NCBI GenBank assembly: GCA_018389105.1
Contig: JACATO010000589.1
Span: forward strand, 1,166,001 to 1,230,000
Length of the DNA stretch: 64,000 bases
DNA from: Nautilus pompilius
Taxonomy: Eukaryota > Mollusca > Cephalopoda > Nautilida > Nautilidae
Direction of reading: 5' to 3'
Shown: in pieces, positions 32,443 to 58,949 of the stretch
How the letters are laid out: each line of letters starts with the position of its first letter
How positions within the stretch are numbered: the first letter of the stretch is position 1
Translations under genes and position numbers: made by a program
The notes under the pieces: model-generated
What the model was told of the DNA's origin: nothing
The model's database searches: none
The model's input: the letters and a program-made list of their open reading frames with translations, nothing else

Positions 32443-32623
32443 CTATTTTTTCTTCTTAACCCTGGACCATTTCTCGTGGGAGTTCCCATAACTTTCGGCT
32501 TCGCTAAAGGTTGGATTTTCAAAAGAAACAGGGGATGTTGGTTCACTGGCAAAATGTTCTCTGTTGAATTTGCCATCTTCTAGTTGGCTGGGGTCGTTGA
32601 TAAGGTCCTGCGCTTGACGGTGT
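32443..32623 (-). CDS. Last coding exon: cytoplasmic tail and stop
   Basis: The acceptor TTTATACAG precedes an open stretch that starts in phase 2, matching the donor of the transmembrane exon, and ends at TAG. The 59-residue tail begins basic ('HRQAQ'), has an acidic middle, and contains 'SFENPTFSEAESYGNS'. NPTF is an NPxF-type motif of the kind that binds PTB or clathrin-adaptor domains in some receptors. It ends in Lys-Lys-Lys-Lys. Not reported by simple ORF calling because no Met starts it. What the tail binds is inference. Confidence 0.8.
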
Positions 32624-35600
32624 CTGTATAAAGAGAAAAATAAATACCGTTACTCGAACACTACGAATAGTCATTGCGAACGCCAAGAGTTAGAAGTATC
32701 ACAGTTCAACCGCTCTTCACGTATCTATGAGCCGCCGAGGCTGTCCCCGAAGAAGAGAAAGTGTACCCGTCATGATCAGAGACAGAATTTTTTTTTAACA
32801 GTACATTAAGAAATATATATATACATACATACTATTAAAGCAGATTTTGTGGTTGCCATAGGCAGCTGCTACTTCCTTAGTCAATCGGCACAGGCAGCAA
32901 AATTGATGTTGGTGAGAAGCCCCGCCGCTTACACGATAAGCCTGGGGAAATTCTAATCATTACCACCAGTAAAGAAGCAGTTTTGAAGGGTTTCGAACCA
33001 CGTGTTCTCTGAAGTTCATACTCGTTGACTTTGTGGGCTTTCGTGAAACTGTGACTTCGAAGGCGCTGCCGTGATCTTTGCGAATGAGTAGGATAAAATC
33101 TACATAGGCCAGTCGTGTCAGCCCCTGCGAGCGAGGTTTCCCATGGTTGCGACAATATTTCTACGTTAAATGCTTCGGCTAGGTTTGTCCTTACCTCTAC
33201 CACGTCATCCGATAAAATCCTTATAAAGCCTTGTTTACTTTTCCAAAAAGGAACTGTGCCAATATTATTAAACCCTAGTTTGTTAATAAGAATGAATGCC
33301 TGTTTTGAAAATTGTTTTGTAGCGGAAATTTATTTGGATCCTGTGGATGATATTTTAGAGGTGTTATAATAAGAATGTTTTTAAAAAGGAGATATTTATA
33401 TAGTTAATTTTGTTAAAAAAAAATAATGTTTTTCCTTTTTGGCATCATTGGGGGTGGAGGGAAATCTATGGCCTCGTCTTTAATTGTGTGTCAATCAGTA
33501 TACTTCTCTTTTACTAAACAGATGACAAAAGACTGAAAATGTCAAAGCAAATTTAAATACAGAACGTCCAATAAATGTATTTTTTGATAACCGCCGGCAA
33601 ACAAATTTAGGAAATTATTTACTTTGCTACTCTTTGAAAAAGACTGATTATTTTGTAATCAAACACAGTGAGAAAGAAAAACGGTAAATAAAAGAGACAT
33701 TCCTTACCTCATATTTCTTATGCTAATCCCGGTAATAAACAAAATCAGAAGAAGCGCAAATGATCCAAATACGATACCAATTGTGATTTTCAACAATTTC
33801 TGTAAAACGGAAAACATAGAGAACGATTTTAGAAGTGGTTATAGACGTGTGCTACAAGCAACATTTATCGGTTGTCTTTCTGCTGTAATATTTAACTTCC
33901 GATACAACGAAATCTGAGAAAACTTTCCCATGACGACATGAAAATGTCGGGCAGAACAACATGCGCACCTTTTTATCCGCACGATGAAGCTTCTGTTAAA
34001 GAATATCTTAAATGCTTCTTAAATCAGTCATTTATATATTTAAAGAGTATATTTTAAAACGTGATCTGTGTTGTTACATTTTGTATATCTGCATACGGAG
34101 CTGTAATCTTTTACGGAAGATACGTAACTGATAATAATAATAATAATTGATGAGATGACAATTCTCTATGCCTTTTTGTGAGTTTAAAAGACTGCTACAA
34201 CTATTCATCCTCGTAGCTAGAACTGCTCCATTCTCTCCACAATGAAAACAATCTTTCCATGCAGTTTAGAAACTAATTTTGCTGCAGCATGTAGTGAGTG
34301 GCCAGCTGTTCTTTGAGTTCACTCATCATGCTGGTTGATGTGATGATGGCATTACCCCCCGATTGGTGTTAACGGAAAGTCTGTTACTATTGTTTAGATA
34401 GCCCTTGAGTGTAGAAACTAGACCAGTTAAAGAACAACAGTGGTCTTTTTTCGCGTCAGCACGCAGTGAAAAGAACCAGCTTCATGTCGACAGACTGAAC
34501 ATCACATAATGACTTAGAGATCCCTTACTGTGGCAGTCTAATACCGCTGGATTAACCAAAGCCATTAATTAGGAATTGGCTTCAAAAGTCTGCTCCAGTA
34601 GCACTGACCATGTTGAATGTTTATCCTCTCTATCATTACCTCGTTTATATTTTCTTGTTAGCTACCCTACTGAGTCCACGTTTTATACTTTCACTAAAGG
34701 TCAATGGAAACATATTGTTAATACAACATTACGGGGCGTAGCCAATATCTGCGGGAATATCGCTTTGCAGTAAAACATCGATCCGTTCGGCTCAAACTTT
34801 TCTGAGTTTAATCATTATTTTTAAATTTCAAGACTTGATTTATTTATACGGCTGAATTTAGTTGTACATTTAATTTATTTCTCTGTGCCAATGCTGACGA
34901 AGTCTAGGATATACGAGTGATCTTGGACCAAAGTACTGCTCATTTATCAGACGCTGTTTACTGGCATACAGCCAGAAAAATAACAGGATTTTCTCGTGGC
35001 TATGTCCGAAAAAAGCTATTAGGGTTACTGAGAACATCCACAACCTATTAAAAGACATTAACGTGAAAACAAATCTAATCGCTTGACTCAGTGCGCTTGG
35101 CTTTGTACTGACATAGAAATACAAACAAGACCCCAAGAAACCACATTCGTCATCTAATAGAAGCTGATTCCATAAACACTGTAATTGTATCAAGGTGAAC
35201 TCTCACTAGGGCCTCTGTTGACATCTGTATCACTTTCAGGCATCTTGAATAAATCAGTCACAAAAATCTTTGAAATCAATTGAATCTCAGGATAGGAGGT
35301 TTTCCCCTTTTAATCATATTCAATAAGTAAATATAAAAAGCATTATTGGTTACAGCCATTGTTCAAAAGTTATTAATCTCTCTCTCTCTCTCTCTCTGTA
35401 TATATAGTTCAAAAGTTTTTTTGCGATGACTAGTAGTCAAAATAATTCCGCTTGTTAAAGGAAGATTTTGTTGTCTAGTTTAGCCTATAGGCGCGTCATA
35501 TGACTGAAGTATTCAGTAGAAGGTAAGTTAGTATCGAATGTGCTCTTATTATTGTAAATCACTTAACTGAAGCTCTGTTGATTAATTTTTTTTAAAAAAA

Positions 35601-38272
35601 CGAGAGATTTTAAAACACTACAGGTAACTAAATGAAAGATAGTAAATATTTTAAAATAAAAGATTTTAAAGTCAGCTCAGACACAACAGTGGAGAAGCAC
35701 ACAAATAGCTTTAAAATACTCGCTGTTTCCATTTGCTCATATCTATTATTTCCAGAATATATTTTAAATGCACATACATCTATTTTTAAGCGATGAATTA
35801 ATAATTAGTTTTAACTCTCTGTATACCACCCCTGGATGCATTTGCACTAAAGTATTTTTCTAGTCTATATTACTCAGCACAGGCCGAACCGCAGGGGCTG
35901 TGACACGCAGTGCCTTCATTGTTAATATAACTTCTTGTAACGACAGATTCGTGTCGCTCCAATCCAAAGCATTTTGCATTGCGAGTGCGTTGACTAAATA
36001 TTCTGCCACTTCAATCCGAATACCAACTGGTGCTTCTGGGTAATACAAGGGAGGTAAAAACTGATGTGATTCTGACGTCAGTCAGTAAGGTGTGTCTTTT
36101 TTCAAAAAAAAAAACAAACTTTTATATATTTCCGTAGGAATTATAACTAGAGTAAATTCAAGACTCTAGAACGGATAAATTTATATTATACTCTTTAAAT
36201 ATAATAGGGAATAATTATGGAATCCTTGAATCAGTGTTTCCTCAATGGTACCATTTAAGTGGCACTACCTGGCTTCCACCATGGGTAGTTAGTTAGTTAG
36301 CAGCGTATGTCTGTAATCCGCGGTCGCAAGTCAGCTCTCCCGGTTTCCTCTTTCTTCTTCCAAATCTCGAATTAGGCATTCATATTTCCATTTTGACCAC
36401 CATATAATCCAACCAGTTGGAAGAGCAGTTTGATTTCCGGTTGGAGGCATGATGATAAATCGCCGCTAATCAGTTGTGGTAGAAGTTTCAGAAATTGGGT
36501 TTTTGGAAAGTTCAGAAAGAAAAAAACAACAACAAGAAAGTCTTGTTTACTGGGTTTTCGGCTGGCTGCTGTGTAAAGCCCGGTAGATCGATATCGTACT
36601 TTGGTGCTAGAAAATCATCTTCTCTACAGCGTGGCAGTACTTTACCTATTTTTTCTTTTTTTATAAAAAAAAGAAAAGTATCTTTCTTAAAATTGACAGC
36701 GAGGTACGTTTACGTCATTTCCCCTGTTTTCTTTGTAGTCCACATCTGCCTTCCGGCTTGAAGATAGTAACGAAAGAAAGAAAATTATGACCAAAGTAAT
36801 GAAAGCTGTTAACCTTTCCACTAGACAATAAATAAAGAAATCGCCAAAAACACTTTCTTCAGTCGGAAAAGGCTGAATGAAGTTCTCAAACAATGTTATG
36901 TTTTTTTATAAGTTTAAAGTTTTACTATTCAATTCATTATTTATCGTGACTACCTTCTTTAAATACTTATCTAACCCTTTCTTTAATAAAAAATATTGAG
37001 CACGTGTAAAAATAATGCTGAAATTTACCCTTTAATATCTTCCAAAAATTTCACGTATCATAAATTTTATGAATGTCAAAAATTACAAACTACTAAAGGA
37101 TAAAAAGTAACTTTTCATACAAGAAATACTTTTGCAGAAATTTATGACGATGACTTTGCTATTATTTCCAATAATCTTCCAAACATGATCGCCTAAAGAA
37201 GTCATAATTTATTTGATAAAACGATGAAGAAAAATTTTAATTTCTTTGGTCTGCTCAATCGGATTTATAAGAGCAGACATCATTTCACGTACGGTTGTTG
37301 CAGTTTTACTTTGGTGAGTTGTCTTTTATGCTAAATGGGCAAATTCATAGAAATTCTTAACATTTTTAGTATAAAGTAAATCAAACGGAGCAGGTACAAA
37401 ACATAATTAAATAGCTCTTCAGAAAATGAAAAATACCTTTTCCAAACTGTTTGAAATTTAATAAACTAATTATGCACAGTTTTGTACCCTTTGTGGTTTA
37501 CATAAACTTGTTTATTGCAGGTTTTCCGACTTTGAAAGCGATTAGATCTCATGAAGGCGAATTTTAAAAAAGAATTAAGAATCTGACTGCAAATAAAATG
37601 GCCAAGAACTTGACGTTTTATGTGAATCTTACGACTGTAGACTGACATCTGTTTAGGAGCGTAATTATGGTGCATTTGAAATAATAACATTCGACTTGAT
37701 TATTATTAGTTTCGTCTCTTCCTCTGAAGGATAGTTAAGTTCTGCTCCAGTCTGAATAAATGAATCAGAACACACTAAACTCCAGCTGGTTTCTTTCCAC
37801 ATGAAGGCTGTGATTATCAACAATGTCTTTCTGTGGAGCTGGACTTTTTTGCGATGTTGACATTCGAGAGAGGATGGGCGCCATTGCTGTCCAGACTTGT
37901 ACGCAACCCAAATGAGAATGTTATTTATTAATTTTTTTTTAAAAGAAATATTATTTGCGCATTTACATTAGTGGCTAATTTATCTATCGCATCACACACT
38001 AAAAAAAGGACTCTGGTTCGCCCCCTAAATGCAGCTATACCCTGACTAATGTGATGTTTGCGTTTTGTCTTTGATTTACCTCTTCCGATTTCCTTTTGCT
38101 GAAAACTCTGTTAGCCACAGCAGCGCGCGCCTATTGCAGTTTACTGCTTCGGTAATCGGTAACCGAATCTCCAACAAACGACTGCATTACGGGTGCTTAG
38201 TGCAGAAGCCACATAGTTATGAAAACAAAGCTTTATCGGCTTTGTTATGTTAAAAATACATTCTTATATTGA

Positions 38273-38318
<46 letters not shown>

Positions 38319-41300
38319 TGATACTGGACCTAAAGAGAGACGATGCAATGTGGAAAGCAACAAAACAAAAATCGTTGCGTTGATCCACGCTCAAAAACTC
38401 TCCGGCTTCTTACTTAAAAACCTTAATGTACTGATCTCGTATCCACCACTGTCGAAAGAAAGGAATTATTCTGACACTCCGTTTTCAGGAGCTACTGAGG
38501 GTCAGTAACATCGGAATGCAACAACTTTGTCATTACAAAGTCGGTTTCACGCACTTGTTATTTAAGGGCCAGATCTGACAGTAAGGGAAACGATGAAACA
38601 CTAAAATAAGGACTTATTATGATGTGAACGTATCATACCAATTCACGAAAAACTCGGTATAGTTTCTTATCTGCTGGCCAAATATTGCATAAAGTTTTTA
38701 ATTTTTTCAAATTACTGATAAAATCTGTTATAAAATCAAAAAATAAGTGTAATTTTAAAAGACAAAAAACCCCACATTTATAAAATATGCAGCTGTTTTT
38801 GGCTAAACCTAAAGATAGAACTCTCTCATATCTGTAAGACGAGGAGACCTGTGACAAATAAAAAGTGTAAAAGGATTTCATCAGTAGTTTAAACACTATT
38901 TGCTTTAAAACCAGAGACACAGCCTATTGTTTTCAAAAAAACCATAGAGAATTATTCTGGGTTCTATATGAAACAGTCCATCCCTTTCGGGTAGTATACA
39001 ATTGTTAGGTTACTTCGATCATTTACAATCACCTTAATAATAGGAGGCAACGTTTCAGAGAAAAATTTCTCTGTTCCCCTCTACAGTGTTTAGTAATGAC
39101 AAGGAACATTTGGATTACAATGATGTTTGCTTTGTAGTAAGCATTCCTATATTTAGATTTTACAAGCGGCTTCAGCCTGTCCTGTCTACGACGCTGTTAT
39201 TGCCAAGATTTTGATGTATTTTGGTGCAGTCCGAAGCGTTAGCCAATATCCTTACCAAAACCTAACAACTAACAGGTCGAGAGGTAAACAGAAGCTCGCT
39301 CGGGTCAAATGAACAATCCAGAAAATTTCCCCAAAATCCGGGAACGCCTGCTGAAAACAAACATCGCTGCACTCCAGGAATAATCTTTCTCAGAACTCCG
39401 CTGAAGGTAACAAAAGCTGTTTTATTAGACAGTTCTGTTAATTCTTATTAGGTTCTACGAATTTTCAGAATTAACCTTGTGGTTTCTGAAAAAAACACAC
39501 CACCATTGGTTACTTTCCGTTCTTGTCTGCACATCTGCACCGCATCACCTACAAAACGCGACCATATTTGGCTGGCCGACGTCATTACACAACAATTGAA
39601 CTTACGTCATTCGTGATACCGTCATCTGATGAAGCTTTTCCCAAGTAGATCTTGATTTTTGGCTCTAATTTCTTGAAGGTTTCTGTGATGGTCTCCATTG
39701 TTACCGGCACGAGGTCTTTGTCAGGGAGAGTCCTGTTTTCAATTCTGGCTATCACAGTGTAGATCACACGGGTAAGCTGTTCTCTACACGAGTTACACAG
39801 GTGTATTATGAAAAAAAAAAATTTAAAAAGTTTTATAAATTTAAAGGCAATTTCCTGGTTTCTAAACATAGCAGTCAATGATATTTAAACATTAGCGATT
39901 TAAAATTTATTACGAAAATTTTACATTATCAGTTATTTGAAATTTTAAATCACCGTTCGTACACACTTCGACATAAGTCGTGCAGAACCGAATGTCCGAC
40001 AAACGTAATAATCAGAAAAAGTAATGGGATTATTATATGGTCATCCACGATTATTGGTTTAGCGGAACTTGGGTGGTTGTCGAGATAAGTATAACGACAG
40101 GGTCATGGATGTTCCCAAGAAACGTTCTGTCATTTAGAATTTCACGTACCCTACCGTAAAAAAAAATAAAGCTTGCAGTCGTGGAATGTGCACCCTTACA
40201 CCGTGACAGACAATAATCCAATCAACGTTTCCCTGATTGTCAGTTGTTCTCTGTTTCACGAAGACTTGATGCGAAACAATATTCTCCTCTTTTCATGATC
40301 TTAAATCCTACCAAAATGTTGATTGTCGCAATTATGTTTACTTCACGTATGTAAATCTGGCGACCTTAAACATTTGAATGGCAAAACTGGCGGGCGAGTT
40401 AACCAAGGTCGCTGACTTTTCCGGACAGGGTTCTGATGCTGACTCTATTGCTGGCTCTGTGGAGGTTTCTCCGGCTAGTGGCTTAGCGCGTGTACAAGCC
40501 TCGATATGCAGCTGCAATGCCATGTTTTATTTTAAAGCAACCCACAAGCATATGCTCAATCAAAATGTGGCAAACACACAGAAAGCCCATGTATGCGCAA
40601 GAGCACAATAAAAGCCGTGGGTCATGCAACATTTTAATTTTTATTTACTATGAAGAAAAACGCGAGGATTTCTTTTATCTCGAAATGTGTAAAGAAACAC
40701 AATTATATTCGGTAGTCTTAGCTAATTTTAGTTTAATGTATTTGATTTGCAAACAAGGACAACGACGACATCTCCATGCATTGAAAACCGCGGTTACTTG
40801 TCACAGGCGTAAGTTGCTACAGCACCAATAACTCCAAAGTTAACATCTGACTCATGAAACTCGCTCCGGTTATCTTTCCTACAAAAAATACACATCCAAA
40901 TGCCATCTACTGTTGTTGTTTTTTCAGTAAGAAAGAGTTCCAAAATGTTAAATGACGAAATAGACACTATTTTTTAAAACTAAACATCTTCGTATATTTA
41001 AAATAAATAAAGATTTTTGAAAACTTTAATATTAGTGCGGGGAATTGGAAGTATGTAGTTCGAGAAAGAAATCTCTGAAGAAAACGTTTCGAAAGCCCAA
41101 CGCTCGGCGTTCAGCTTAAACAGAACTCAACCACTAAAGATGCCCGCCAGGTTACTGCAGCTGCAGTAACACTTACAATTAAATAAAATAGTTTTTTCCT
41201 AAGTTCAGCTTCATTGGAGACAGCTTTATAGCATTGCAACGTGAGAAGGCTTACTTAATGACCAGCGGAGAGAATCTTATTCATATCACCACCACTTAAA

Positions 41301-44300
41301 ATAAAAGCTTTCCAATTTTACTTTTGAATACATTCTGAAAAACAGCCTTGGAAACAGCTGGGCTGACTCACTCATTTGATCCTTTGTAGTCGCTTTTTAA
41401 AGATCTAACGTGAACTGTTATGTTTCCACCAAAATCTGAGAAAAGAGAGAGAGAAAGAGAGGCGTGTAAGATTTTTCCTTTCCCAGAAACTATACTCTAA
41501 TAACGGAACTTGGTTTGTTTTAATTCCTATTTATACTTTTAAACAATTCAGAAAACCTAAGTCTCTCGAGGTAATAATGTATTTTTTCTGATTTTAATTG
41601 TTTGAAATATTGCCGTTTATCGACAAATAGAACAAAAGCTTTTAAAGCAAATCGAACATTGACGATAATAAAGAAATCAAAATGATTGACTGGAAACTAT
41701 AATTCCCAAATTGGTAAATAAAAAAACAAAACAAATAATATGAATGGAGACACTAAAAGTGCTGTAACGCATCCAGTGAAAGTTATTATTTAATAAAGTC
41801 TATGTAAAGTATCTGGCCGTAACGGACTTGGAAATTGGTAAGATATTAACGTATGGCATCTGATTTTAATGAGATTATTCCTAATTGTTCATTACTGTAA
41901 CTCATGCTAGAACATATACAGTCAATGTGCAAGACTAATTATGCACCAAGTAACACTGGAAAATAACGAAATCTATTTTTTAAATGGCGTAAATATGAAA
42001 GCCTTAATACAAGGGAACTGATAAGAAATCTTGATAGGTAGGAAGCGTTATTGGATCTACCTCAGAGCCTTGGAGCTAAGGAGACATCTCGTCGAGCTTA
42101 TAGCCGCGGGGATGCGATGGGAAGCTGCTGGGTTTAGTCGAGAATTCCCGAAGTTACCACACTCTTACTGCTTCCACGGAGAAACCCATTTTAGCTCGTA
42201 GAGGGATGGAAGATAATAATGATACTGCCGCAGATATACAGGTGTCATCAGGCACATTTTTGTATTTCTAGCAAGTTTGCAGGAAAAGGAAACGCAAATA
42301 AATTTATCAGTCTTTGCTGTTAGAAAATCTTTATAATAAAAAGGTGCTGCAAATGTCTAGAATAAGTGAACATGCTGATTCTTTTGGCAGCTCCACAGTT
42401 AAGCTATCTTCGGCCATCATGTCGGCGAACCAACGAACACCTTAAATATTTCAATTAGTTTTCTAATTTTTATAAAGACAGCTTTGGACGTTTTATGTCA
42501 CGCTAAATGTTAATTTTAAAATTACCTTATTAACGTTTTCTCAGACTATCACGCGTATTTGCTTTTGTTGCATAGTTTATATGTGAGCCTGTATTTTGAA
42601 AAAAAATAAGGAATTTAAATGGAGACTACATACATACCGGAACAACAAGACCATATGTCACTTAAGCCACTGATGATGCAGGTAAGTTAAAAATCTATAT
42701 TACTATGTTTATAACGCGCAATGGACATAGTAGTTTTAATTATAATATTAAACTTATTAGTTTTAAAATTTTAAAGTAAATATTGTAAAAGACTCAGATG
42801 CTATTAAAAAGAAAATAAATATAGCAAAACTTGTAATTTTTAGAAATTAGAAAGGTAGAAGAACTCACATTTGTAAATCCTTGGAGCTTGGTGTCTAGAT
42901 TAATTTGTCTGTAAGGCGTGTAAAGTAGTAACACCGCGATGAAAAAAGTGTGGGAATATTTGATTAATTTTATTAAAAAGCTCCGGTAATCATAAAAAGA
43001 ATGCAACGTGACAGGCAGCTAACAGTATGGCTTCCACCGTACCGAAGAAAGTAGCGTCTCTGGAAGTTCTCTCCACGTTATGAGAGGAGATATCGACTGC
43101 AGTAATCAGTCAGTCTTCTAAAAGTCATATACCTGTAATCTGGGCCGACGTCAAAGAAAGAAGTAATGATCTTGATGGCGCATCCTTTCCGAACATTTTT
43201 TAAAACTTTAATTTACTTTTGAGATTGGCTTAGTTGATAGGAACATTTGGCCGTAGTATAGTCTTTTCCTGTTACTTGTCTAAGAAAAGAAAAACGAGGA
43301 GGAAAATGTAATTGCCCGACCATTTATAAGTGGAAATTGGCTTACTCAAAGAAAGCCTAGTGTTGTTAATATTCTATTAAATGAAAACGCCGGAAAAATA
43401 TATAATCATTTTCTTTGAGGGGAAACAAAACACAAAAAAAGTTTACCTCATTCTTTTCTAATTGTAATAAAATGGTCACACGTTTTTGTTTACCTTGTTT
43501 GATCATTCACTTTTGTATCAAAATCTAATACACATCTGCAGTAATGTAATGACTGTTTTGCTCCTTTCTCGAAAAACTCAAGTTCATTGGTGTTTATAAA
43601 TGTAGTGACTGCTTCTTTTTCCAATAACAGTGATAACCATTTTACTCTCTACAAAAAAACAGATGTTTTCTTGTCTGTTAGGGACACGAAACGAAACGTA
43701 CGCGGAGTACATCGAAAATATACTTTTATTCTTCCACTCACCCGGATTTTCCTTTTGCCACGCTTCCTTCAGCACTTGTTCTATCCGTTTAATCATTTCC
43801 CCCTCTACTGGGCCGATGATGTAGATGCTGCGTTCCTTCAGAGCCTTGCAGTTGCATAGCGAGAGATGGATCCCCTTTAAGGCCTCCCAGTACTGCAGAC
43901 GTGTCGGTTCGACCAGGGCCGTCAGACTGGACTCCACCTCGCCAACAGACACTGTGAACCTCACCTGAGTCACTATGCCCCTATAAAGCCGTAAAGAGTC
44001 TGCCACCTTAGTTGCTATCGATTGCATTTTGATACGAAAGAAAATATATATTATAAACCTGTCCCATTCTCTTGAATTTTCCACACTCTCTCTCTTTTTA
44101 CGTCACCATAGGGCAGTATTTTTAACGTTTTATCCCTTGAGCAATATTCGTATCTGTTACTAACACATTAGACTCCTTTTATTAAGATATCTATTCTCCC
44201 TCTTATTTGCTCTTTTTATTCTCTCTAAATGCATCTGAGAACTTAATAGAACAGAAATTAACTGAGAAACAATTAGAAAGCTAAGGTGAAATAACTTCTA

Positions 44301-47300
44301 TCACTAAGGCATTTTTTATGTTGACCAATGGTCGTTTCTCTATTATGTGAGGAGGTACGACTGAAATTCTTTAAAGTTTTCACATTTTTATTATATGAAT
44401 AGCGGTTTTAAAACAACACTGAATCGTTTTCAGTTTTCTGTAATTCATATAGTGCACTGCTTATTAAAACGGTTCACCTGGTGAGGGGAATGAATATGAT
44501 CAAAAATGATGAAGAGTCTGTGCAAAGTGGATATTTGAACTTTGAACCGAGCATCACTTTTACGCCTCAAATAACAATCAGTTGGCAGCCATCGTTGCCG
44601 TTAGGACTCTACAGGGAATCATTCTTACTAGGAATAACCAAATACCAGCAGTCGATTCCAATGACTACCAGCTTAGTCTGAAATCGTCTATTTTTCAATA
44701 GATGCATTCTGTGCTATTGTACGGTTCTCGGAAGAACGATTACATTCTTTCATCAAGTTTTACCACTCTACGCTTCCTTCGTGATGGCAGCGCCGACCAT
44801 TCAGGCAAAATGAAAAGGGAAGACGAAGACAGAAAAATCACCTTGGCTCCCTGTAGAAGTGTCCATCCCATACGTACATTTGAATACTGATCAGGTTTTC
44901 TGGTATTTCTAAAATGAGAGAACGAAGCCTAATTTAAATTAATGGTATGTAAAAAAAAAAATATTTAACACCGAAAGAAAAAAACTGACGAAAGTGTGTG
45001 AAAAATGTCAAAAACTACAAGAGGAAATAAAGGCTTTTAATTGTTTCTTCTTTTTTTTAAAGCAAACTATGTAATTTCAAATAATCTAAATTATATCTAA
45101 ATGTGTACCGGGGAACAAGCTGCACATGATACAAAACAGGCAGAATAATTATAATACACATTTTTAAAATTAGTGTACTAACAAAACAAACCGACAAAAT
45201 TAGCAATAACAGGAAAGTCAAATCAAAACAATAGGAGAACCCTATCACATCGGCTTTTAAAATTGTGCAATCAAATCAAGATGTGTTATAGACTGGAATG
45301 GTAAACTATCGTTTGTCTTGAAAATATATATTACAGCATTTACAATAAGTACAGATATGGAAGTGAGCTGGCCTTTCCTACTGCGGGACAAAACGGAGGG
45401 TTTTCCATAACATGAGGGAAAACATTACCATGCTTTAATACACTACATAATGATATAGATATATAAATGTGTACGATGTCTATGCTAAAAGAAGACTAAG
45501 GGTTATTTCTTGGCACAAACACGAAAAAGTGTAGATTCATTACTGGATAACAATTATGTCATACAATAAACATGTGCCAACACTAATCTCTAGAAAAGAG
45601 ATTGTTTTTTTAAAAAAAAATTATTAAATTAAAAATTTTACTCTTATTCTTGGCGCAACGATATATATATATGTTCCTCGTTCTCTGCAATTCATATTAT
45701 CATAAGCCATTAAAGGTATCTACGTAGCAAATTAAAAAAAGAATTATGATATCTCTGTATATGAGGAAACGTATTTTTTGTAGTCGTTTGAATCAATGAT
45801 TCGCACTTTTCGCTGTGGAGGACGTAGCTAGGCAGGCGGAGAAAGACTTGGACAAGACTTAAGTTTACGTTTTATTTGAATGTCCGTTATTCGCTCAAAG
45901 AATCCAAGTAGATTTTCAACTGCACTGCAATCACTCTAAGAGGCAGTCAATCAGACGGCTTTCTGCATGAGATCATAAATAGCGGTTTTAATCCAAGCAC
46001 AAATAGCAAACGGTCGGTGAATACTGCGTTAAGAAATCACCAAAGATAGTAAGGAAATTCAGTAGTAAGCCAGGCAAGATATATTCAGAAATTATGCATT
46101 GGTAACTGCTTTTTTATTGCAAAGTTCTTCACAACACTGAGAGAAGGAATGGCAGAAAATTTTACGTTTGCAATTAAAGAAATACACCAAAACCATCGTG
46201 TTTTATAGCTTTTCGTGCCAAAAAGTCGTCGTCTTTTATTAACACCGCGTGAAGCGTAAAAATATCGACGTTTACAGATGGACAAACGAAAAGCGCTTCG
46301 AACTCTTCTTTCAAAGAGCAGCGAGCCTAAAACATGCCAGTTATTTGGAATGTTTCGCAAAGTAAAGAGGCATGAGTGATTGTTTAGTAAAAATGTTAAA
46401 AATATAAAATCTTGATGGAAATACTTTGAACAAAAGGTAAAATGGGTGCTTTAAAAGGAACTATCATCACACAGTATGCACTGTTTTAAAATGTTTATTG
46501 CCATATTAATACCGACCACGTAAAGATACAATTTTGTATTTTTTTTATGGTAGTCAATAAAGATGGTGAAAGGAGGATATTTTTCCCACTGCCGATATTC
46601 TGTTAGTATTAAAGAACATATCCAGGAGAAGAATGATATTGAATGAAAAATAAGTAAAACTGGAAAAAAGAAATCAAAATCTTGGTTTTAAACATGTGTG
46701 GTGCTCTGGATTAATAATTCGATGGCGACACTGAGACGGTTTACTACGATCTGACAATCCAGGTGTTCCCGCGGGATTCCATATCAGAATCATACTAGGA
46801 CTTTACGGCACCTAAAGAAGATGCTAATGTTTTGATTCCTCTTTCTGAGTTTAATCAGACAAGAGATGTTGCATGCATTCGGTTCGAATGAAAAATATAG
46901 GCATCGAATCTGTATTCCTTTTTGGTAAAGTGTAGGAACTGTCTCTAGAAATTTGTACGGTTCCAGAAAAAATTGGAACGTAATTCGAAAAATGTCTATT
47001 GTCATTGTCTTTGCGGCCCATACCATGACACTTCTGCTTCCATACTTGACCGTGAAACGACGACATTGAGGACCTGAAGGTCTTCGATAGGGTTTCTCCA
47101 AACTAAAAATCAACTTTTAGAAGTAAATTCCTGAAATCTGGAATCGAATAAGAGTACATGCCGACACCAGTACTCAAAAATCTTGATAAACATCTCCTCT
47201 TACCAAACATTTGGAAGTGTTTCAGTTTTGCTAGACAGAAGGGTATTCTTACAGGTTAAACACACTCTGTATCCAAGTCCGTAAAGATAATGTTTGGCCG

Positions 47301-50300: not shown

Positions 50301-51408
50301 TCCTATCCAACTATAGCATTTTAAATAAACGAACTAAATTATTTGAGATATTTCCTATGTGGCCGCAGTGCAGGTTCGATAAGCATTTTTAGCAGGTATA
50401 GCGACCTCCAGCTCTTCTGTAATAATTACGCATCTAAACTGAGCAAAAAAACCCCAAAAAACCCAGATTTTATAGGAGGAAACCAAACTTACTCAAATTT
50501 GCAGCCACCCAGGCATTTTTTAGAGCGATTAAAACACTTTTTTCTTGCTTCCGGCGGTCCACAGAATTTAACAGATTCACTGTGTACAGCATTCTTCCAG
50601 CCTCTACTGATACACGGCTCGTGTTGGAGTTTATATACCGCCGAATCTCTTCCGGGTCAGCCACTGTCACGTCCGTTCGGTCGTCTCGCTCTGCTACGTA
50701 CCAAACCTCGGTGTAAATTCCCCTTGAGAAAATATCAGATCCATATAGCATTCAAACCACTTACTACTGCTTATATAAAATTTCTGTTCAACGAAATCTT
50801 GTTTTAAAAAGAAAAAAAACAAAAAACTCTTAGTTCTTCTAAAATTATTTCTTGGACTCTATAAGAAAAAGGGGGAATAGTTGGTTATTTTTTGTCTACT
50901 TTGAATCGTAATGAATCCATAAAAATTAAGTTTCTTAAGTTTTGTAAAAATTTTTTTATCTTGAAAAAGCTTTCCACAACATCCTTTGTCGGACTCTTCA
51001 AAATTCTGATGCTATATAAAATGCACAGCAGAAATAGGCGAAAATCTGAAAGTAGGCTTAGGATGAAATAATCCTTCCGGGAGATAACGAATTTAATTAA
51101 CATTCTTGTATATATATTTTTTCTAAGGCTGAAATTTCAGCGAAAGACATTACTTAAGTTTTAAAAAAAGTTAAACAACATTTCTCCGCGCTGACAGCCT
51201 CAAGCAATGTTACTTTATATATGGTTTATATCTGGAACAAAAAAGAGTATTTTCGATGGCGGGTTGATGCAAAACTGATTTTAGGATTAGCTTGAACTTT
51301 CTCTAAAAGCACACTGTCGTAGAATGGATACGGTGCCAGTACGTAGAGAAATCGAGCAATTCTATAAACTTGCCAGCTTCTCTGTGGCGAAAAAACCACA
51401 CAGAGAGG

Positions 51409-51467: not shown

Positions 51468-51562
51468 GAGAGAGAGAGAGAGAGGAGGATAGAGAGAGAG
51501 AGAGATTGGCATGGCGTCAGTGCAGAAGGAGATAACGTAAATGTAGAAAGAGAGATGACGTC

Positions 51563-51597
<35 letters not shown>

Positions 51598-54500
51598 GTA
51601 GAAATCATCCAAATAAAACATGCGTTTACATATGTAATAAACTGGTTTAAAGAATCACAGGTGCGATTGTATCCATAGACGAGTGTAAGATCTAATGTCC
51701 GTTATACGTGAATTAATACAAGACTAGTACATAATTTTACCCTTATTACTCATCTGTCTCAAGTAAGTGACAGTTTTATTGGATAGTCAGACAATTTGCT
51801 ACTAATTTGTTACAAAATCTGAGCGAAATTGTATGAATTGCAGAAGACAATATTTGTTTAGAAAATTGTAAAAATAAACTTACGTGGATTTGGTACAAAA
51901 TTCTTCACGATCATATATTTCAATTGGAATTCTCTCTAAGAAAGAGGAAATTGCAAAATATTTTGGTAAAATAGAATATTTTATCTATAAAATTGTATCA
52001 GTAAGACACTTTAGGCTACCTAATAGTTGCATTAAGCTGAATACCAACCAACGTTTGTTACATTCTTTAAGTAAATTTATCTTTAGCAGAAAAGTTTATT
52101 ATATTATAACAGAAATATTTAGTTGTGATACGTTGTTTTGTAAAGCGTTGCTATGCACAAACATATATTATCTACGTTTATTTTAATAATATAAATTACC
52201 AAAAAAGTTTTTTCATTTGTTTGGTTATGGTCCTAAATTAATAAAACAATTGAGACTTTTTTGCCGATAATGATCCTCTACAGCTTTCATTTGTCGTCAT
52301 ATATAGACTATATTGTTGCAATTTGCTTTACAGTGCCCCAGTGAGCGCTAAACACAATCTTACAAAAATACAAGTTACCATGCCCGGGATGTTTCAGTTA
52401 TTACAAATGTCGTGCTGTCAAACAGAATTTGAAAATATCCATTCATTCCGCTACAGCGTAAAATCAATAGAGAAAATAATTTCTCTTTTCAAAGACTCTG
52501 CCTGCATTACCTGTGCTTAGAGCACCTTCTGGACGTAGTCTCATCAAGCTCTCAAGTAACAGACCAGTGACTTTTATGCCATTACGATTTGTTAGGAGAA
52601 AGATTAAAGCTCGGTGCCACTAAGATGATATTACACACGAGTACTGAAAAGTACGGCGACACTTTTAACAATTTTCTACGACCGACGAGAGAGTTAGCAT
52701 CTCACCTAACCCACTCTAACTCTGGTGGAGCCTAGAGCATAATACTAATGAAACCTTTCGGCCATGGCTGCACACAGAGAATTAACATAAGTAAATAGGC
52801 AACTTATATGACTCAGAAAGGCTATTCCCGTCTACTGAGAACACTTTGCAAGGTATATGGGAGAGGACAGACCAGAGGCGGCGTCAGTTTACAAGACCGT
52901 CATGACAAAAATCAGGAGGTTCACAGGAACTGACGAGACTTGAAGGGCAGCAAGTATAGCAACAACCACCAGTTTTGCAGCACTCTGGAATTTTAAAATT
53001 CCCATTGAAAAACTCGAAATAAATCCACCGAATCTGCATCATCATGATGCTACGTTAATGTATTGAGATACACACCGGCTTGTAGCTTCCTACACGCTGG
53101 ATGGTAAAATTGCCAAACTCGAAAACTTTTACAAGTTGGAATTTTGGTGGATGCCGTCTGAAAATAAACGAAGTACTAGAAATTCCTGTCTAGTGCTAAA
53201 GAAAGGGGTCGAAGAAGAATCGTTTACATGCGTTCTGGTCGCCCTTGTGCTAGAAGATGATCGTGGAGACTGATCCTCTAATTATTCTTTAAATTCGATA
53301 TAACACGTGCAAGTCATCACGTATTATTTATACAGCATGCGGTACAGCGGATGACCGACGAGAACCAAGTTACTTCTCAGCCCACACAATGCTAGTCGTC
53401 GACTGCAGTAAGCAAAACAGAAACTACGACATTTACCTTCTGCTTTTCAGAAAACTACCATTTCCCCCCGGTGTTCAGCTTTTTGCAGTTCTCAAACAGT
53501 GGTTGGCAATGTTCAGCACATGTATTTTACTGAAACATCAGAATCCCCGACAAAATATGTCGGTGGTCAGTCTGATTTCTACTTTGGATGTAACTCTGCT
53601 GAGCACATGTGCTTTCTCTTTGATCATTTCCTCCAAGAAAGCGTACAGTAAACTCACAAACCTCAAGACTCTTTGATACAGATTCTAAGCCAGGAAACAG
53701 CTGCAATACAGCAGACCAGGATTGCTGATCTCTCCAAAGGCAAAGAAAAGCACCACAAAGCACTAACCAAACTAATATTTAGCTATGCTATGACTAGATC
53801 AAAGACAAACAGGTGTTCATTAAAATTTGGGCACCTCTTTACTTATATAAAATCTCTGCATATATTAAATGGCCAAACTATACTGACTATATTGTGCTAA
53901 CTGAACTGATGGTTAGACCATAACAATTAAACAATTATTTAAAGCTGTAGTGTCGACTACTTTGAAAATTGTACACTTTGAAAATAAGAAAATTAAAGTA
54001 CAAACTACACCTTTTGAGAAGAACGATAATTCTAATAACAATTTTATTATCATCATTTACTAGTAAGAAGATAGGTTGTGATTTTCTAAGGATGTGTTAT
54101 TTTATTATACATTGCTCATGAATGGATATTTCGCCGTTAATTAAAATTAGTATAGTAATTTAACATGTCGCAGTTTCTATACACCAGCCAACAGTTAAAA
54201 CAGCTTAGTTAAAATAATTAGATGCGGTTTCATTTTGTCAAGCACTTAGATATATTTTTTTCATATTTACAGTTTTGTTTGCAATCTCGATTTTATCTCA
54301 CAAAGTGATTTTTGTAATCTGCAATAAATAATTTTAGAATGATTTCTCTTTTAAGTTTTATTTAAATAATTAGACAAAATAATATGGCATGGTGCCATTT
54401 TAACTACATTATTTAAATTTTATAAAATTAATTTTGTTTGTAATGTTTATAAATATTTTACCAATGTTAGAATGATTCCAAGCGTACGAAAGGCTGTCTT

Positions 54501-57500
54501 CTATTGCCACCATGTCACGAAAGCGCACAATTCCTTTGATATTCAAGCGCCTGAGCTTAAATGCCATGCAATTGCAGACGTTGACCCCTTCGTTCTCAAG
54601 ATCCTGTTGTGATGGACCAGAAATAATCTGTGGGTCTATTAGGGTTCCGTCCACCAAAACAAAATACAGAGCTTTGGAAATTTCAAACCTATAATTAAAA
54701 AAAAATAAAGAAATAAAACAGAAATAAACGTATGTACCCTGAATATTCCAGGTAGATAATTCTATTTCCATAATTTATAATGTGATATTCATAAAATTGT
54801 GAAAATTATATTATACACTGGTGTCCACAAATGAAGCAGAAAATGGTAAATACAAATATATTTACGTGAGAGTTTAATCTGCAATCTATCAACATAAGCT
54901 GTTTCTCATGCAGCACAATTTTAATAAAAATATTCAAGTGATTTCTAGTAAAAACAGATGTTACCTTCGATATAGAAAAAAATTACTGGCTTGACTTTAT
55001 ATTACTTGTAAGTTACAATTGGATGACGGTATTTTAGCAGATTCTCTAAGGGGGGTAACTATTGATAAAATAGATGCCAATCCAGCTGGTAGAATAGCTA
55101 AATGGAAAACTGAAGCATCGTTTTTTTGTTATGTAGACAATCAGAAGTGCGTGAGGTTTTGCTCGAAGACTCGTCAAAAGTTGCGTACTGGCCTAGAGAG
55201 AACGTAGAACACAGAACCAGCTCGCGAATATCAAGGAAGTGATCACTAGGTGTCGCTGGTTAGGAAACTCGGGCTGAAAGGTTATTGGCGTACGTACCTG
55301 CATGTTTCAGGAAGGTAATTATAACTCTGAAGAAGTATTCTTCACGCTCCAAAAATGTATTTGTTTGTTGCATAACTTTTAAGAGTCAGTGTATTTCATA
55401 AGGTTACACTTTTATCTTATGCGGAAAAAAGATTTTTCCCAAGCTCTACCAAAGAGAGGCAGCATGCCGAGAGACTTTTCCAAAAGACGGGTCTCCGCCC
55501 AAAGCAATGTGCATTCGTCAACCATAGCTCTCCTTGTGTCTCTTCACAAATCTACAGGTAGAACTACAGATATCTGGACCTGATCAATCCCTTAGCACGA
55601 CGCAGCATGAAACAAGCAAATTTCTACGTCTTCTATAAAAAAAAAACGTCGATACGTAACAGCGAGTAGGAAATCAATACTTGTAGAAAAGGAGATGTAA
55701 AGAGTTTATCCAATTACTATCATCAAAAGTTAGAGCTCGGACCACATAAGATGTAGGAGCCCTTACAATGAAGTACATCTTAATTGCACTGTCAGGCACG
55801 TCAGCAATTTCTCATTATGTTTGTTGTCGCAAAGTTTAGACTAACCTTTCTTTCTTGGTCAAGCTACTATTTAATCTGTCAATTGCTGATGCCAGGATCC
55901 CTGCTCACTGGTTTAAAGGCAGCGTCAAGATATGTGTTGTAGTCGGTTTATGGGTGAACCCATTGATATTTTAAGCACATTTCACGCCAGTTATTCCTTC
56001 CCTTCGCGCACCGGCACAGACTGCACCTCGCGTTTAGCAAGACAACTCCCGCCTCCCAAATCAAAGACGACAGGATGTCATGTGGAAAAAACGGTATTGC
56101 CGTGCTATCCTGATCACCCGGATCCTTAAGTCATTTGAACATGTTTAGTTTGACTTAGGTTGACCAGTCTGCAGGTTCAGCGGCGCTGCAAGAGAAGTTT
56201 AACACCACTTCTGCAGCCAGGATACAATGCATATGCCAGTCCGAAAGCTGCAGAGATAACCAATGTAAGGCCCCGAGTTGTTGAAACTCTGCTGTTCTAT
56301 GTGATGCGACACCATTCAGACAGGCGAACACGAAACGAGAAATCTAGACATTAACGTTCAGTAAATGGTCAGAATTAAATTATACCCATTTTCACACTCA
56401 TGCAGCTAGTGTTTACAACCAGGGTGCGCCACTTTATTGTGCGTGAATATATAGCAACCACCCCCACCCGAGAAGATGGTTATCTTCCTTACTGATAAAG
56501 TGATACATGATATCAGTTAAGAAGCGATCCGATTTTTCATTATTAGTGGAGCCCATTCTCATTCACATTTTTGCTTATCGGGTTCCTTACGTTTCATGGT
56601 ATTACTCCAGGAAAGACGATCCAACTCAAAGAGCTGGGGTATTTTTAGCATAAATAAGACAAAATAGAAAAAGAAAAAAAAAACAAAAAACAAAGAATGG
56701 TCAGCTTTCTTAAAACAAGACCAATAAAACAATCTTGTAGTTTTCATAAAAAAAGAGAAAATGTAAGATCAAACATGAATTAACCTACATCAATAGTTTT
56801 ACTATAAATGTGTATTGCTTCAACGGTTTTGATCATTTGTAAACTGTATCAATTTCTATTTAATTTTTATGTTTATTATTTTTGAAGTAATTAAATTCTC
56901 TCGTTTTACTTTCCTTGGGCGTCGTCGATTGTATTAATTAATTCCTAGTTCCTTCTTTATGAAGAGATCACTTCTGCGTTGCAAGCTTCTTTATTGAAGT
57001 CAATTCAATAAACACGGAAACAATAAAATATTCAAAAGCCGAAAAGAAAATGTATTGGTTTAGCATAAATATTTAGCAGAGCCAATCTTTAAAAGATTTT
57101 CACGAATATATTTGTACATATTTTAACAATAAAATATGTAAATGGGAAAATACGTTACTCAGAATCAAATAACAAAAGAAAAGGATTGGATATGAGAGGA
57201 AACTGGCCATTATTTATGAAAACTGGCAAAACAATGAATTATAATTAAAAACAAAAAATTTAAATCTTAGAAATAATAGGAGATAATATTTCACCATTGA
57301 AATTACTGAAGATAATTTAAAGGTTAAATATGTAAGTAAATAGTATTGTAAACTTTCAAATACTTTTTGATTGTAGGGCTTTACAAAGTTTGAAAATTAA
57401 ACTAACAGTGTTTATGAATAGGAGGTTTTGTGTTTACCAAACAGGTATGATTGTTCAGTGACTTACATATTCTGGAGTGCGTGATAGGTCTAGTGGTTAC

Positions 57501-58949
57501 ACTCTTGAGATTGAGAACCGTTTCAGGTAAACAAAACCATTCTGGACGTAATGTAGAGAACAATAGGTGTTTTACCACTCGTTCCTCCTTGTAAAGCAAC
57601 CACATAGGGCTCTCTCCCATAATTCACGTCCGAATACTGTTTTCCTTTTCAGCTCTGGAATGATTTGGGTGGACGGCTACCTCATATATCACACCCGCTC
57701 CCACAGCAGAAGGATAATTCTCACTTGAAAACAACTACGACGGCCGAATGTGGGATCGCTTTACTTGCACCACAAATAAATCCTAAAATGAGCCCACAAA
57801 AATTAGTGCTGTGTTAGCCATTAAAATCTCTTCACAACACGCGCACCTGACTTCGGTCTAAACCGAAAGATCAGCTTGCTCCCTTAAAAGAAAATCAATA
57901 GCCAGAGTTCGCTTCCCGTGGAAATGGCTCGGTTTTATGAACCATCTTAGAATAGCTTCTTCTCGATACTCTTCCCTAGCCAGCTGAACTGGTTTCGTTC
58001 CAGCAATGCTGTTTTCCGACAGCTCTAAAGGTGAAGATCTTTAATAGGGACTTCCATATCCAAATCATGTGTTCCGGGCCCCACGTGACGCGGGGCGGGC
58101 AACCACGGAATTACGCTCGGCGTACATCGCCAAATACAACTTGTCTCTCTCTTTTTTTTTATTTTGACATAAATAATAATGGTAGATTTGAATAAAAGTA
58201 ATTTATATGCTTAAATGTTTTCACAAAAACGCATGCTAGAGAGATTTAATCTCAAGAACTGGCGACCGACCTTCAGCTAGAATGACAGTCGGAAAGATCC
58301 GATATGATGTGAAATTGCTAACACTACTTAAACAAAGCTGCCACTCTGCACTAACTGACGAAAATCACATGGGGAGACAATCCAGTTCGTATCGTTGGTG
58401 GCAGTCGGTTCCGGGAGCAACCACTGGAGCTCCGATAATTTGGCATCGACTTAATGCTAGATAATTTTTTGTCACTAGAAATCAGTCTGTTTAATTTTCA
58501 TTGAGTCTTCTCTTTGACGTTGAAATCAGTCTCTTGGATACACATATTCGGGTAGCATTGATCACATCTAGTTTAAACTCTGTTATTATAGTCTAGTCAG
58601 TCAATTATATTAATGGTTAACGTTTCACTCACAAACCAATAATAAGTAAAAAAAAAATATTCACTTAAAGTTGTAAAACCAAAAGTATATTAACGAATAA
58701 AATATAATTTTTGCTAAATGTTCCAGCAAGGAAGCAAATCTGTCCACTAACCGTTTAGACACTTTATTTTTTTAAAAAATCTATACCTTTAAGATTATTT
58801 TACGTACGATTTACTTTAATTTCTCGCCGTTATGAGAATAAATAAAGCACAAAGACAGCCGTGTTCTTACCCATCAGCAGAGATGTATCTTTGAGTTTTC
58901 GCAAAGACTATTTGGACCGAACAGTTAGCAAGGCACGTCGTGTTCTGTC
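32443..58949 (-). CDS. Multi-exon type I membrane protein with four tandem modules (5' incomplete)
   Basis: Ten exons join in one reading frame of about 478 codons: 58,871-58,949; 54,462-54,688; 51,884-51,935; 50,493-50,722; 49,111-49,156; 43,742-43,980; 40,342-40,456; 39,606-39,783; 33,708-33,799; 32,443-32,623. Intron phases run 1,2,1,2,1,2,1,2,0,2 and every junction is compatible. Each pair of the first eight exons makes one module of roughly 90-100 residues. The ninth encodes a transmembrane helix and the tenth a 59-residue tail. So the product is probably a plasma-membrane protein with a repeated extracellular part. The family is not recognised. The Cys-Asn-Cys plus hydrophobic strand pattern recalls NTR modules and the strand pattern recalls SEA-type modules. 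The signal peptide and start codon were not found; more modules may lie upstream. Confidence 0.75.
33708..33799 (-). CDS. Transmembrane exon
   Basis: A strong acceptor (CTATGTTTTCCGTTTTACAG) and donor (ATGAG|GTAAGG) bound 92 nt in phase 0 to 2. The translation begins 'KLLK', then has about 20 uncharged residues ('ITIGIVFGSFALLLILFITG'), then 'ISIRNMR'. Positive residues follow the helix, as expected for its cytoplasmic side, so type I topology is likely. The join to the tail exon (AG|A gives Arg) is in frame. Confidence 0.85.
35377..35397 (+). repeat. (TC)n microsatellite
   Basis: About ten CT units in the intron upstream of the transmembrane exon. Confidence 0.9.
35874..36035 (-). CDS. Candidate extra exon, phase 1-1, not in the main chain
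   Basis: A good acceptor (CCTCCCTTGTATTACCCAG) and a moderate donor (CTGA|GTAATA) bound 53 open codons beginning 'APVGIRIEVAEYLVNALAMQ'. It has an amphipathic, protein-like composition. It sits in the intron between module D and the transmembrane exon. It would fit after the alternative module-D donor at 39,620 (phase 1), but its own end (phase 1) does not fit the phase-0 transmembrane exon, so another exon would be needed. It may be an alternative exon, a decayed module or chance. Confidence 0.4.
36050..39600. other. Intron sequence with (CA)n
   Basis: Part of the intron between module D and the transmembrane exon. AT-rich; a (CA)n lies at 38,273-38,314. Only motif-free short frames are present. 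Confidence 0.5.
38273..38314 (+). repeat. (CA)n microsatellite
   Basis: About 20 CA units within an intron of the membrane-protein gene. Confidence 0.95.
39606..39783 (-). CDS. Module D, second exon
   Basis: Phase 2 to 0: acceptor CTCGTGTAG|A and strong donor AATGAC|GTAAGT. The 59 residues start 'EQLTRVIYTVIARIENRTLP' and include 'KKLEPKIKIYLGK'. This lines up with 'KLRRLNIKG' of module A and 'LKERSIYIIG' of module C, and resembles the 'K.K..K.YL.LG' strand of netrin-type NTR domains. The Cys-Asn-Cys of A and C is replaced by Thr-Glu-Thr-Phe. A second donor at 39,620 (GACG|GTATCA) would end in phase 1 instead. The chosen donor fits the transmembrane exon directly. Confidence 0.75.
40342..40456 (-). 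CDS. Module D, first exon (start uncertain)
   Basis: Phase 1 to 2 with acceptor AACCTCCACAG|AG and donor TACGTGAA|GTAAAC. It contains 'EPCPEKSATLVNSPASFAIQ' followed by 'MFKVARFTYV', matching the layout of module A's first exon (Cys-rich start, then 'VQIVFAKTQRYI'). The join AA|A gives Lys and continues in frame. An upstream acceptor at 40,512 (CATTGCAG|CTG) would add 18 codons but begins in phase 0, which would then need another exon after module C. Start confidence is therefore lower than for the end. Confidence 0.6.
43742..43980 (-). CDS. Module C, second exon
   Basis: Phase 2 to 1; acceptor CGGCTTTATAG|G, donor AATCCGG|GTGAGT. The 79 residues start 'GIVTQVRFTVSVGEVESS', reach 'IHLSLCNCKALKERSIYIIG' and end 'VLKEAWQKENP'. 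The start aligns with module B ('GIYTEVWYVAE'), and the CNC and AW signatures align with module A. GC-rich relative to the flanking introns, as expected for coding sequence. One of the clearest exons of the gene. Confidence 0.85.
44090..46700. other. Intron sequence, AT-rich, unassigned
   Basis: Lies between the two exons of module C. No other feature is recognised. A minus frame at 46,085-46,360 is arginine-rich without a domain and may belong with the neighbouring Tc1 relic. Confidence 0.4.
46780..47510 (-). pseudogene. Tc1/mariner-like transposase relic in an intron
   Basis: Minus-strand fragments in different frames: 47,400-47,200 reads 'RQRTAKHYLYGLGYRVCLTC' followed by 'KNTLLSSKTETL', resembling the 'RTV..LL...GY......KPLLS.KN...RL' region. 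47,110-47,010 reads 'KPYRRPSGPQCRRFTVKYGS' then 'RSVMVWAA', matching the 'TVK.GG.SVMVWG' strand of Tc1 transposases. Stops and frame changes throughout; inactive. It lies within the intron between the two exons of module C. No inverted repeats recognised. Confidence 0.65.
48530..48752 (-). other. Alternative exon-like stretch (phase 1-2)
   Basis: An acceptor (GCATGTTCCATTGCAG) and a GTGCAC donor bound 73 open codons containing 'SKENAIIVEKLSDNVEPLTR'. Its phases equal those of the exon at 49,111-49,156, so it could replace that exon but not join with it. The plus strand is also open through the same bases (48,407-48,808) and has its own acceptor- and donor-like sites. I prefer the 49,111 exon because of its similarity to module B. 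Confidence 0.25.
49111..49156 (-). CDS. Module C, first exon (46 nt)
   Basis: Phase 1 to 2; acceptor GCATTATGTCCAG|TC, donor TTCAT|GTAAGC. It encodes 'HAASLGTDRENACF', and the join AT|G gives Met before 'GIVTQVRF'. The equivalent exon of module B encodes 'DREEFC' at the same distance from its 'GIYTEV'; the shared 'DRE..C' pattern and identical phases are why I chose this micro-exon. It is too short for ORF-based detection. Confidence 0.65.
49320..50490. other. Intron sequence, AT-rich
   Basis: Nothing assignable between modules B and C. Confidence 0.5.
50493..50722 (-). CDS. Module B, second exon
   Basis: Phase 2 to 1; acceptor GATATTTTCTCAAG|G, donor AATTTGA|GTAAGT. The 76 residues start 'GIYTEVWYVAERDDRTDV', pass 'EEIRRYINSNTSRVSVEA' and end 'IALKNAWVAANL'. 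The end aligns with 'VLKEAWQKENP' (C) and 'SLSYAWNHSNI' (A). The Cys-Asn-Cys position reads Glu-Ala-Gly, so the CXC pair is lost in this module. Strong GC contrast with flanking introns. Confidence 0.85.
51403..51595 (+). repeat. (GA)n microsatellite, two blocks
   Basis: GAGAGA tracts at 51,403-51,506 and 51,566-51,595, interrupted by AGGAGAGG and a unique spacer, within the intron between the two exons of module B. Confidence 0.95.
51884..51935 (-). CDS. Module B, first exon (52 nt)
   Basis: A strong polypyrimidine acceptor (CAATTTCCTCTTTCTTAG) and a strong donor (CCAC|GTAAGT) bound 52 nt in phase 1 to 2. It encodes 'RIPIEIYDREEFCTKS', and the joins give Glu upstream and Thr before 'GIYTEVWYV'. 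Both phases fit the neighbouring exons exactly. This is a micro-exon found only by following phases between modules A and B. Confidence 0.75.
52190..54450. other. Intron sequence between modules A and B
   Basis: A minus-strand stretch at 53,500-53,700 reads protein-like in fragments ('VSLLYAFLEEMIKEKAHVLS') but is interrupted by stops and unmatched by splice phase. It may be an old transposon remnant. The remainder is AT-rich and empty. Confidence 0.4.
54462..54688 (-). CDS. Module A, second exon
   Basis: Phase 2 to 1; acceptor TTTTAATTATAG|G, donor AACATTG|GTAAAA. The 75 residues start 'FEISKALYFVLVDGTLIDPQ', include 'EGVNVCNCMAFKLRRLNIKG' and end 'EDSLSYAWNHSNI'. The order (Val-rich strand, CXC, basic strand ending in Gly, then 'D.SL...W') follows that of the C-terminal NTR domain of netrins, which is the basis of the tentative NTR comparison. 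The join GG|G keeps the frame with the preceding exon. Confidence 0.85.
54700..57470. other. Intron sequence, unassigned
   Basis: Lies between the two exons of module A. AT-rich, with a GC-richer patch at 55,960-56,300 that has no recognisable product. Confidence 0.45.
57478..57545 (+). repeat. tRNA-like SINE head (candidate)
   Basis: GCGTGATAGGTCTAGTGGTT resembles an A-box-containing tRNA-SINE head; about 30 bp on, GAGAACCGTTTCAGG is a poor B-box. The wording is like many animal SINEs, but the body was not recognised. Confidence 0.35.
57640..57785 (+). repeat. SINE-like dispersed repeat, copy 3 (diverged)
   Basis: Contains AGGATAATTCTCACTTGAAA and GACGGCCGAATGTGGGATCG, in the order seen in copy 1 (120-320). 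More diverged than copies 1 and 2. It lies in the intron between the two exons of module A. Confidence 0.5.
58871..58949 (-). CDS. Module A, first exon (first exon found)
   Basis: Phase 1 to 2; acceptor TTTCTGCTCTATTTTAG|GA, donor GATGG|GTAAGA. It encodes 'QNTTCLANCSVQIVFAKTQR' then 'YISAD', with two Cys before a hydrophobic strand and a possible N-glycosylation site (Asn-Thr-Thr). Joined to the next exon it reads 'ADGFEISKALYF' with no gap. Because it starts in phase 1 it needs an upstream exon, which I did not find in the window. Confidence 0.8.

Follow-up and report, generated by a model that had tools for sequence, protein, structure and literature searches.

The 3′ exons of a probable cell-surface protein gene in Nautilus pompilius, with repeated domains that may be distant cousins of SEA domains

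Results

The DNA analysed here, called the window throughout, is a stretch of 64,000 nucleotides (nt) from Nautilus pompilius (assembly GCA_018389105.1, contig JACATO010000589.1, positions 1,166,001–1,230,000). It very probably contains the final exons of a gene for an animal cell-surface protein, in which small repeated domains are combined with a membrane anchor and with a brief tail that carries an uptake signal. From a listing of phase-legal minus-strand exons, scored by a generic splice matrix together with a coding score, a chain of ten exons was rebuilt between 58949 and 32443, with 1409 nt, 468 codons and a stop, whose nine GT-AG junctions are all phase-compatible (phases along the chain 1-2, 2-1, 1-2, 2-1, 1-2, 2-1, 1-2, 2-0, 0-2, 2-stop). 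An earlier reading of the same DNA, which we refer to as the original prediction, had proposed a ten-exon gene in one open frame, built from AG/GT-bounded pieces the last of which ends at a stop; pieces matching these, of which only some ends had been named, were recovered, together with the start at 58949, the stop at 32443 and the donors at 54462, 50493 and 43742, and the length has to be corrected from about 478 codons to 468 residues. What did not stand is the completeness of the gene: the first exon opens at a phase-1 acceptor and the chain contains neither a start codon nor an exon for a signal peptide, so that it represents the 3′ part of a gene. The ten pieces would presumably be spliced into a single transcript.

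In the order of transcription, always on the minus strand, the chain begins with a short exon (58871..58949, phase 1 to 2, QNTTCLANCSVQIVFAKTQRYISAD), the top candidate of this phase pair upstream of the next exon (acceptor 4.1, donor 3.5), which would supply the putative strand beta2 of a first domain. It is followed by the long exon A (54462..54688, phase 2 to 1), with 75 whole codons and the C-terminal end LSYAWNHSNI; a second, weakly supported short exon (51884..51935, phase 1 to 2, RIPIEIYDREEFCTKS); the long exon B (50493..50722, phase 2 to 1), an open frame that ends in LKNAWVAANL; a third short exon (44842..44908, phase 1 to 2, IPENLISIQMYVWDGHFYREP), at whose junction with the next exon the motif REPR-G is formed; and the long exon C (43742..43980, phase 2 to 1), which ends in LKEAWQKENP and has a coding score of 30.6 and a donor of 7.5. 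The chain continues with a fourth short exon (41372..41435, phase 1 to 2, FGGNITVHVRSLKSDYKGSN; acceptor 6.6, donor 1.2), exon D (39606..39783, phase 2 to 0), which runs from EQLTRVIYTVIARIENRTLPDKDL to GITND (coding score 15.5, donor 3.2), and the transmembrane exon (33708..33799, phase 0 to 2, KLLKITIGIVFGSFALLLILFITGISIRNM; acceptor 4.6, donor 7.2), and it closes with the last exon (32443..32623), open to its stop, which encodes a cytoplasmic tail with the motif FENPTF and a C-terminal KKKK. An AATAAA read from the sequence at 32310..32315 is a possible polyadenylation signal. The transmembrane segment, tail and stop of the original prediction are thus present, with a 19-residue hydropathy maximum of 2.6 at chain residue 385, and FENPTF is the only match to [FY]xNPx[FY] in the six frames of the window (120,839 residues).

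The long exons exceed what chance would give. On the minus strand between 32.4 and 59 kb exactly three donors close open phase 2 to 1 exons of 200–260 nt (donor score ≥ −1.5 and acceptor ≥ 0, limits picked after the exons had been seen), and in all three, as had been noticed before, an Ala-Trp pair sits near the end, 3–5 residues before the donor. Among 200 dinucleotide shuffles the mean was 0.23 such exons, one shuffle reached three and none contained any with Ala-Trp, while the plus strand of the same interval yielded two, neither with Ala-Trp. The excess of guanine and cytosine (GC) over the flanks is significant for the ten exons combined (Fisher p = 4.8e-6) and individually for A (p 0.004), B (p 0.005), C (p 0.0005) and the last exon (p 0.04), and it is not significant for the remaining six (p 0.06 to 0.57; exon D, p 0.10). 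Over the chain, the frequency of G at the first codon position is 0.31 in the coding frame, compared with 0.17 and 0.24 when the other two frames are read, a signal that is not uniform, since in exon C alone another frame exceeds the coding frame (0.42 vs 0.34).

The three long exons had been described as paralogous, and judged by their sequences this can be upheld with confidence for modules A and C alone, whose exon pairs align with a local score of 65 (z 10.2; the shuffles average 23.5). These two long exons also match each other at E about 0.002 in a phmmer search among the window's own open reading frames (ORFs), and both carry Cys-Asn-Cys (CNC) at the aligned place (chain residues 64–66 and 260–262). 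The same search with B as query found neither A nor C at E ≤ 10, and B is grouped with them by exon phase, similar length and the position of Ala-Trp, without significant sequence similarity; D is grouped with the modules by start phase and place only. The glycine junction said to open these exons holds for A as a split GGG codon and appears in B and C as a first whole Gly codon; D has none.

The family remained as unrecognised as it had been at the outset: no credible relative was found in Pfam, NCBIfam (no match), the sequences of the Protein Data Bank (PDB) or three protein-database searches, which returned nothing at E ≤ 10; the large protein collection is built from public genomes and metagenomes and its animal share is uncertain, so that the absence says little about animals. 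Scanning bacterial genome contigs with exon C gave no relatives among 75 pattern matches, its frame had no match among PDB sequences, and scanning the window with Rfam and for tRNA genes gave no hit. Some matches were set aside: in Pfam, all below the curated cut-offs, Ead_Ea22 (E 0.041) and DXP_synthase_N (0.17) for single exons, Protocadherin (0.22, over the transmembrane stretch) for the chain, and Protocadherin (0.059) and Paramyxo_ncap (0.12) for re-cut pieces; among PDB sequences, six matches of the chain at E 0.62 to 1, such as cysteine desulfurase and troponin C, dismissed as chance. Profile searches and structure prediction, as the original prediction had proposed for the chained exons, gave no family match and poor half-module models. 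For the exon C model, Foldseek listed 746 matches at E ≤ 10 and none at E ≤ 0.001; there is a weak resemblance to ferredoxin-like and permuted ferredoxin-like sandwiches, among other matches listed, and a SEA domain is named neither in the best 50 of the 746 matches nor in a second 50-row listing.

Upstream of the chain, no convincing exon was found among the 40 best candidates in 59–64 kb, nor a convincing fourth Ala-Trp exon or further modules among the candidates listed there. An Ala-Trp ahead of a weak donor at 63187 was rejected as an upstream exon, as it lies in only a short open stretch, and so was a 105-codon open frame ending in a stop at 60389-60706 (minus strand), GC-richer than its surroundings by eye, with no clear donor or phase and no Pfam match. 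Elsewhere on the minus strand, 11291-15155 holds the remains of a retrotransposon of the long interspersed nuclear element (LINE) type in broken frames (RVT_1, E 9.2e-17 and 3.4e-10; zf-RVT, E 1.2e-5, just under the cut-off), with the ORFs 13364-13921 and 14508-15155 lacking a Pfam match, and 61529-62010 holds pieces of a Tc1/mariner-like transposase by eye, for which Pfam gives only DDE_3 at E 0.092. At 5858-6091, inside a 94-codon open frame, 6.5 copies of a 36-base unit stand in tandem, with 89% matches.

Discussion

The best explanation for the locus, to which as a whole we would give a probability of about 0.45, is a gene, present here in its 3′ part, whose type I membrane product combines a SEA-like rod with a transmembrane helix and an endocytic tail. 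About four SEA-like domains, that is, alpha/beta sandwiches of the ferredoxin-like kind, would make up the ectodomain as a short rod; the last of them would sit right at the membrane, and a single transmembrane helix and a tail of some 60 residues would come after it. The alternation of phases 1-2 and 2-1 along the exon pairs, and the absence of an Ala-Trp helix from the unit closest to the membrane (D), are what would be expected if the exon pairs were shifted relative to tandem SEA-like domains. Each pair would encode beta2 | beta3-alpha-beta4-beta1′-alpha1′, so that the beta2/beta3 loop would contain the inner phase-2 intron; the following domain would open with the Ala-Trp helix, and the domain borders would lie inside the long exons. 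Following this register, we infer that exon A comprises the second half of domain 1 and the start of domain 2, and exon D the second half of the membrane-proximal domain, without the Ala-Trp helix. Such borders may explain D better than four copies of an exon-pair module; the type I protein with repeated modules of the original prediction is retained as the best reading of the chain, and its number of four is not, given that only A and C are related in sequence and D lacks the helix. The protein may be distantly related to the SEA domains found in mucins and Notch.

Several observations weigh against this reading. SEA membership is unproven: neither the 468-residue chain nor any of five re-cut pieces has a SEA profile at E ≤ 10, the half-module models are poor and partly in disagreement (predicted local distance difference test, pLDDT, 58.4 and 57.7), and that of exon A lacks the two strands required by the SEA register and has no ferredoxin-like rows among the matches listed. 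The remaining module pairs show no significant similarity (A-B z 0.8, B-C z 0.5, pairs with D −0.3 to 0.4). The generic matrix gives low values to some splice sites, namely the donor of A (−1.3) and the acceptors of B (0.3) and D (−0.5), and coding scores are negative for the transmembrane exon (−3.8), 51935-51884 (−0.8) and 41435-41372 (−0.6). The scores of the four short exons were equalled, in 5′ to 3′ order, in 5, 14, 4 and 13 per 100 shuffles, and their joint GC excess is not significant (Fisher p 0.15; 51884..51935 p 0.39, 44842..44908 p 0.18, and no excess in 41372..41435). From the shuffle, GC and frame statistics it follows that solid ground is reached for the long exons A, B and C and for the last one, whereas the short exons, each of them only modestly above chance, are probable without being proven; support for exon D is fair.

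The same figures bear on the alternatives. If the repeat were the exon pair itself, the real type I protein would carry an independent beta-beta-alpha-beta-beta-alpha module unrelated to SEA, bordered by phase-1 introns, as is usual for shuffled extracellular modules, and with its last copy shortened; the similarity of A and C as exon pairs, the strands missing from the A model and the lack of a SEA profile agree with this, but D would then be a truncated module and the exon C model weakly resembles ferredoxin-like and permuted sandwiches, and we consider it somewhat unlikely. That the gene is real and the chain only partly right, with at least one short exon picked by chance and true ones missed, overlaps with the best explanation and is in our opinion improbable: each short-exon score recurs in 4 to 14 of 100 shuffles, GC gives no joint support and two of the four have negative coding scores, against which stand a pattern noted post hoc, in that all four share one phase pair and open with a strand-like stretch and then Tyr or Phe, and a plus-strand best score that is much lower in three of the four intervals.

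It is quite improbable that the protein belongs to an already named family of membrane proteins, such as the KIAA1549-like proteins or the MUC16-like mucins, and has diverged beyond the reach of the profiles used. No such profile is found at E ≤ 10; that of KIAA1549, which we take to be PF12877 and to be present in Pfam-A, is not listed for the chain, no literature was found linking KIAA1549 with a SEA domain, and the resemblance to it is a presumed one. For MUC16 the parallel is the tandem arrangement of the putative SEA-like units, as several SEA domains in tandem are described in its C-terminal region (PMC1552070, PMC3431878); in contrast to its five exons per repeat (PMC3431878), the chain has two, with far more diverged repeats and no Ser/Thr-rich stretch seen. 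In a mucin of the MUC16 type a Pro/Thr/Ser-rich region would be expected upstream of the SEA array, on the 5′ side of the gene that lies outside the chain. Finally, a decayed copy, whether pseudogene or transposon-derived, or chance open frames would fit the weak donor of A, the weak acceptors of B and D and the transposon pieces elsewhere in the window, but there is no stop inside the ten exons (which were chosen open), long Ala-Trp exons occurred in 0 of the 200 shuffles, codon phase leaves its signal over the chain and no transposon family is matched; we hold this to be very improbable.

Returning to the SEA-like rod, domains of this type are found near the membrane in MUC1, MUC16, Notch and dystroglycan, and in other ectodomains such as that of GPR126. 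The order of alpha and beta elements in the exon C model is compatible with a ferredoxin-like sandwich, the last unit is placed in a position that is common, though not obligatory, for SEA domains, exon D being followed directly by the transmembrane exon in the predicted chain, and the inner intron would lie at the inter-strand loop. Unlike SEA domains, the chain has no profile match, no GSVVV-type autoproteolysis motif, which only the canonical subset of SEA domains carries (no GS[VIA][VIA] in 468 residues), and no mucin-type region in the part seen, and to our knowledge neither the Ala-Trp helix end nor the CNC strand is known from SEA domains.

Cleavage of SEA domains has been reported to occur in the loop that joins strands 2 and 3, either autoproteolytically or through furin (PMC6954182), and SEA-like domains with structured neighbours are described as able to serve as proteolytic switches (PMC6586460). 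REPR-G stands at the putative beta2/beta3 loop of domain 3, as a minimal RxxR of which there are three in the chain, possibly by chance; domain 3 may be cleaved there by a furin-like protease, at REPR|G, its halves staying together until pulled apart.

The closest comparison for the tail is Amnionless, of the CUBAM receptor, a single-pass protein described as having a SEA domain before the transmembrane segment and tail signals of the FXNPXF type (PMC8710305, PMC6283879), which promote its internalisation (PMC8710305). The chain is likewise single-pass, with an FXNPXF-type signal and a putative SEA-like domain before the membrane, whereas Amnionless has two tail motifs, beta-helix domains and a Cys-rich region, and the chain has one [FY]xNPx[FY] motif, repeated units and 7 cysteines in 468 residues. 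The Amnionless family profile, presumably present in Pfam-A, is not listed for the chain at E ≤ 10. FENPTF lies in the tail, and in Amnionless, itself a protein with a SEA domain, FXNPXF promotes internalisation; by analogy we favour a surface receptor of endocytic function whose ectodomain is a SEA-like rod: the rod would hold or present an extracellular ligand, and the tail, through FENPTF as a predicted endocytosis-type signal, would recruit clathrin adaptors of the phosphotyrosine-binding (PTB) type, so that the protein is internalised. The adhesion-like role suggested earlier finds no direct support, and the tail signal points to endocytosis instead. The C-terminal KKKK, we assume, fits a dilysine signal for retrieval to the endoplasmic reticulum and could be one.

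A more specific proposal, which we hold to be unlikely, is that of a lineage-specific family of endocytic receptors, with a rod of diverged, non-autoproteolytic SEA-like domains in which the inner intron lies exactly in the cleavage loop and the two halves are separate exons. No tandem SEA proteins of molluscs or invertebrates are described in the titles or abstract openings of the literature found. If the SEA-like reading is true, the SEA-like group would gain an unnamed membrane protein that combines a tandem array with an uptake signal; it would exemplify the diverged surface proteins of animals that profile libraries miss, and the intron at the cleavage loop would provide a simple test of gene structure for finding further such proteins.
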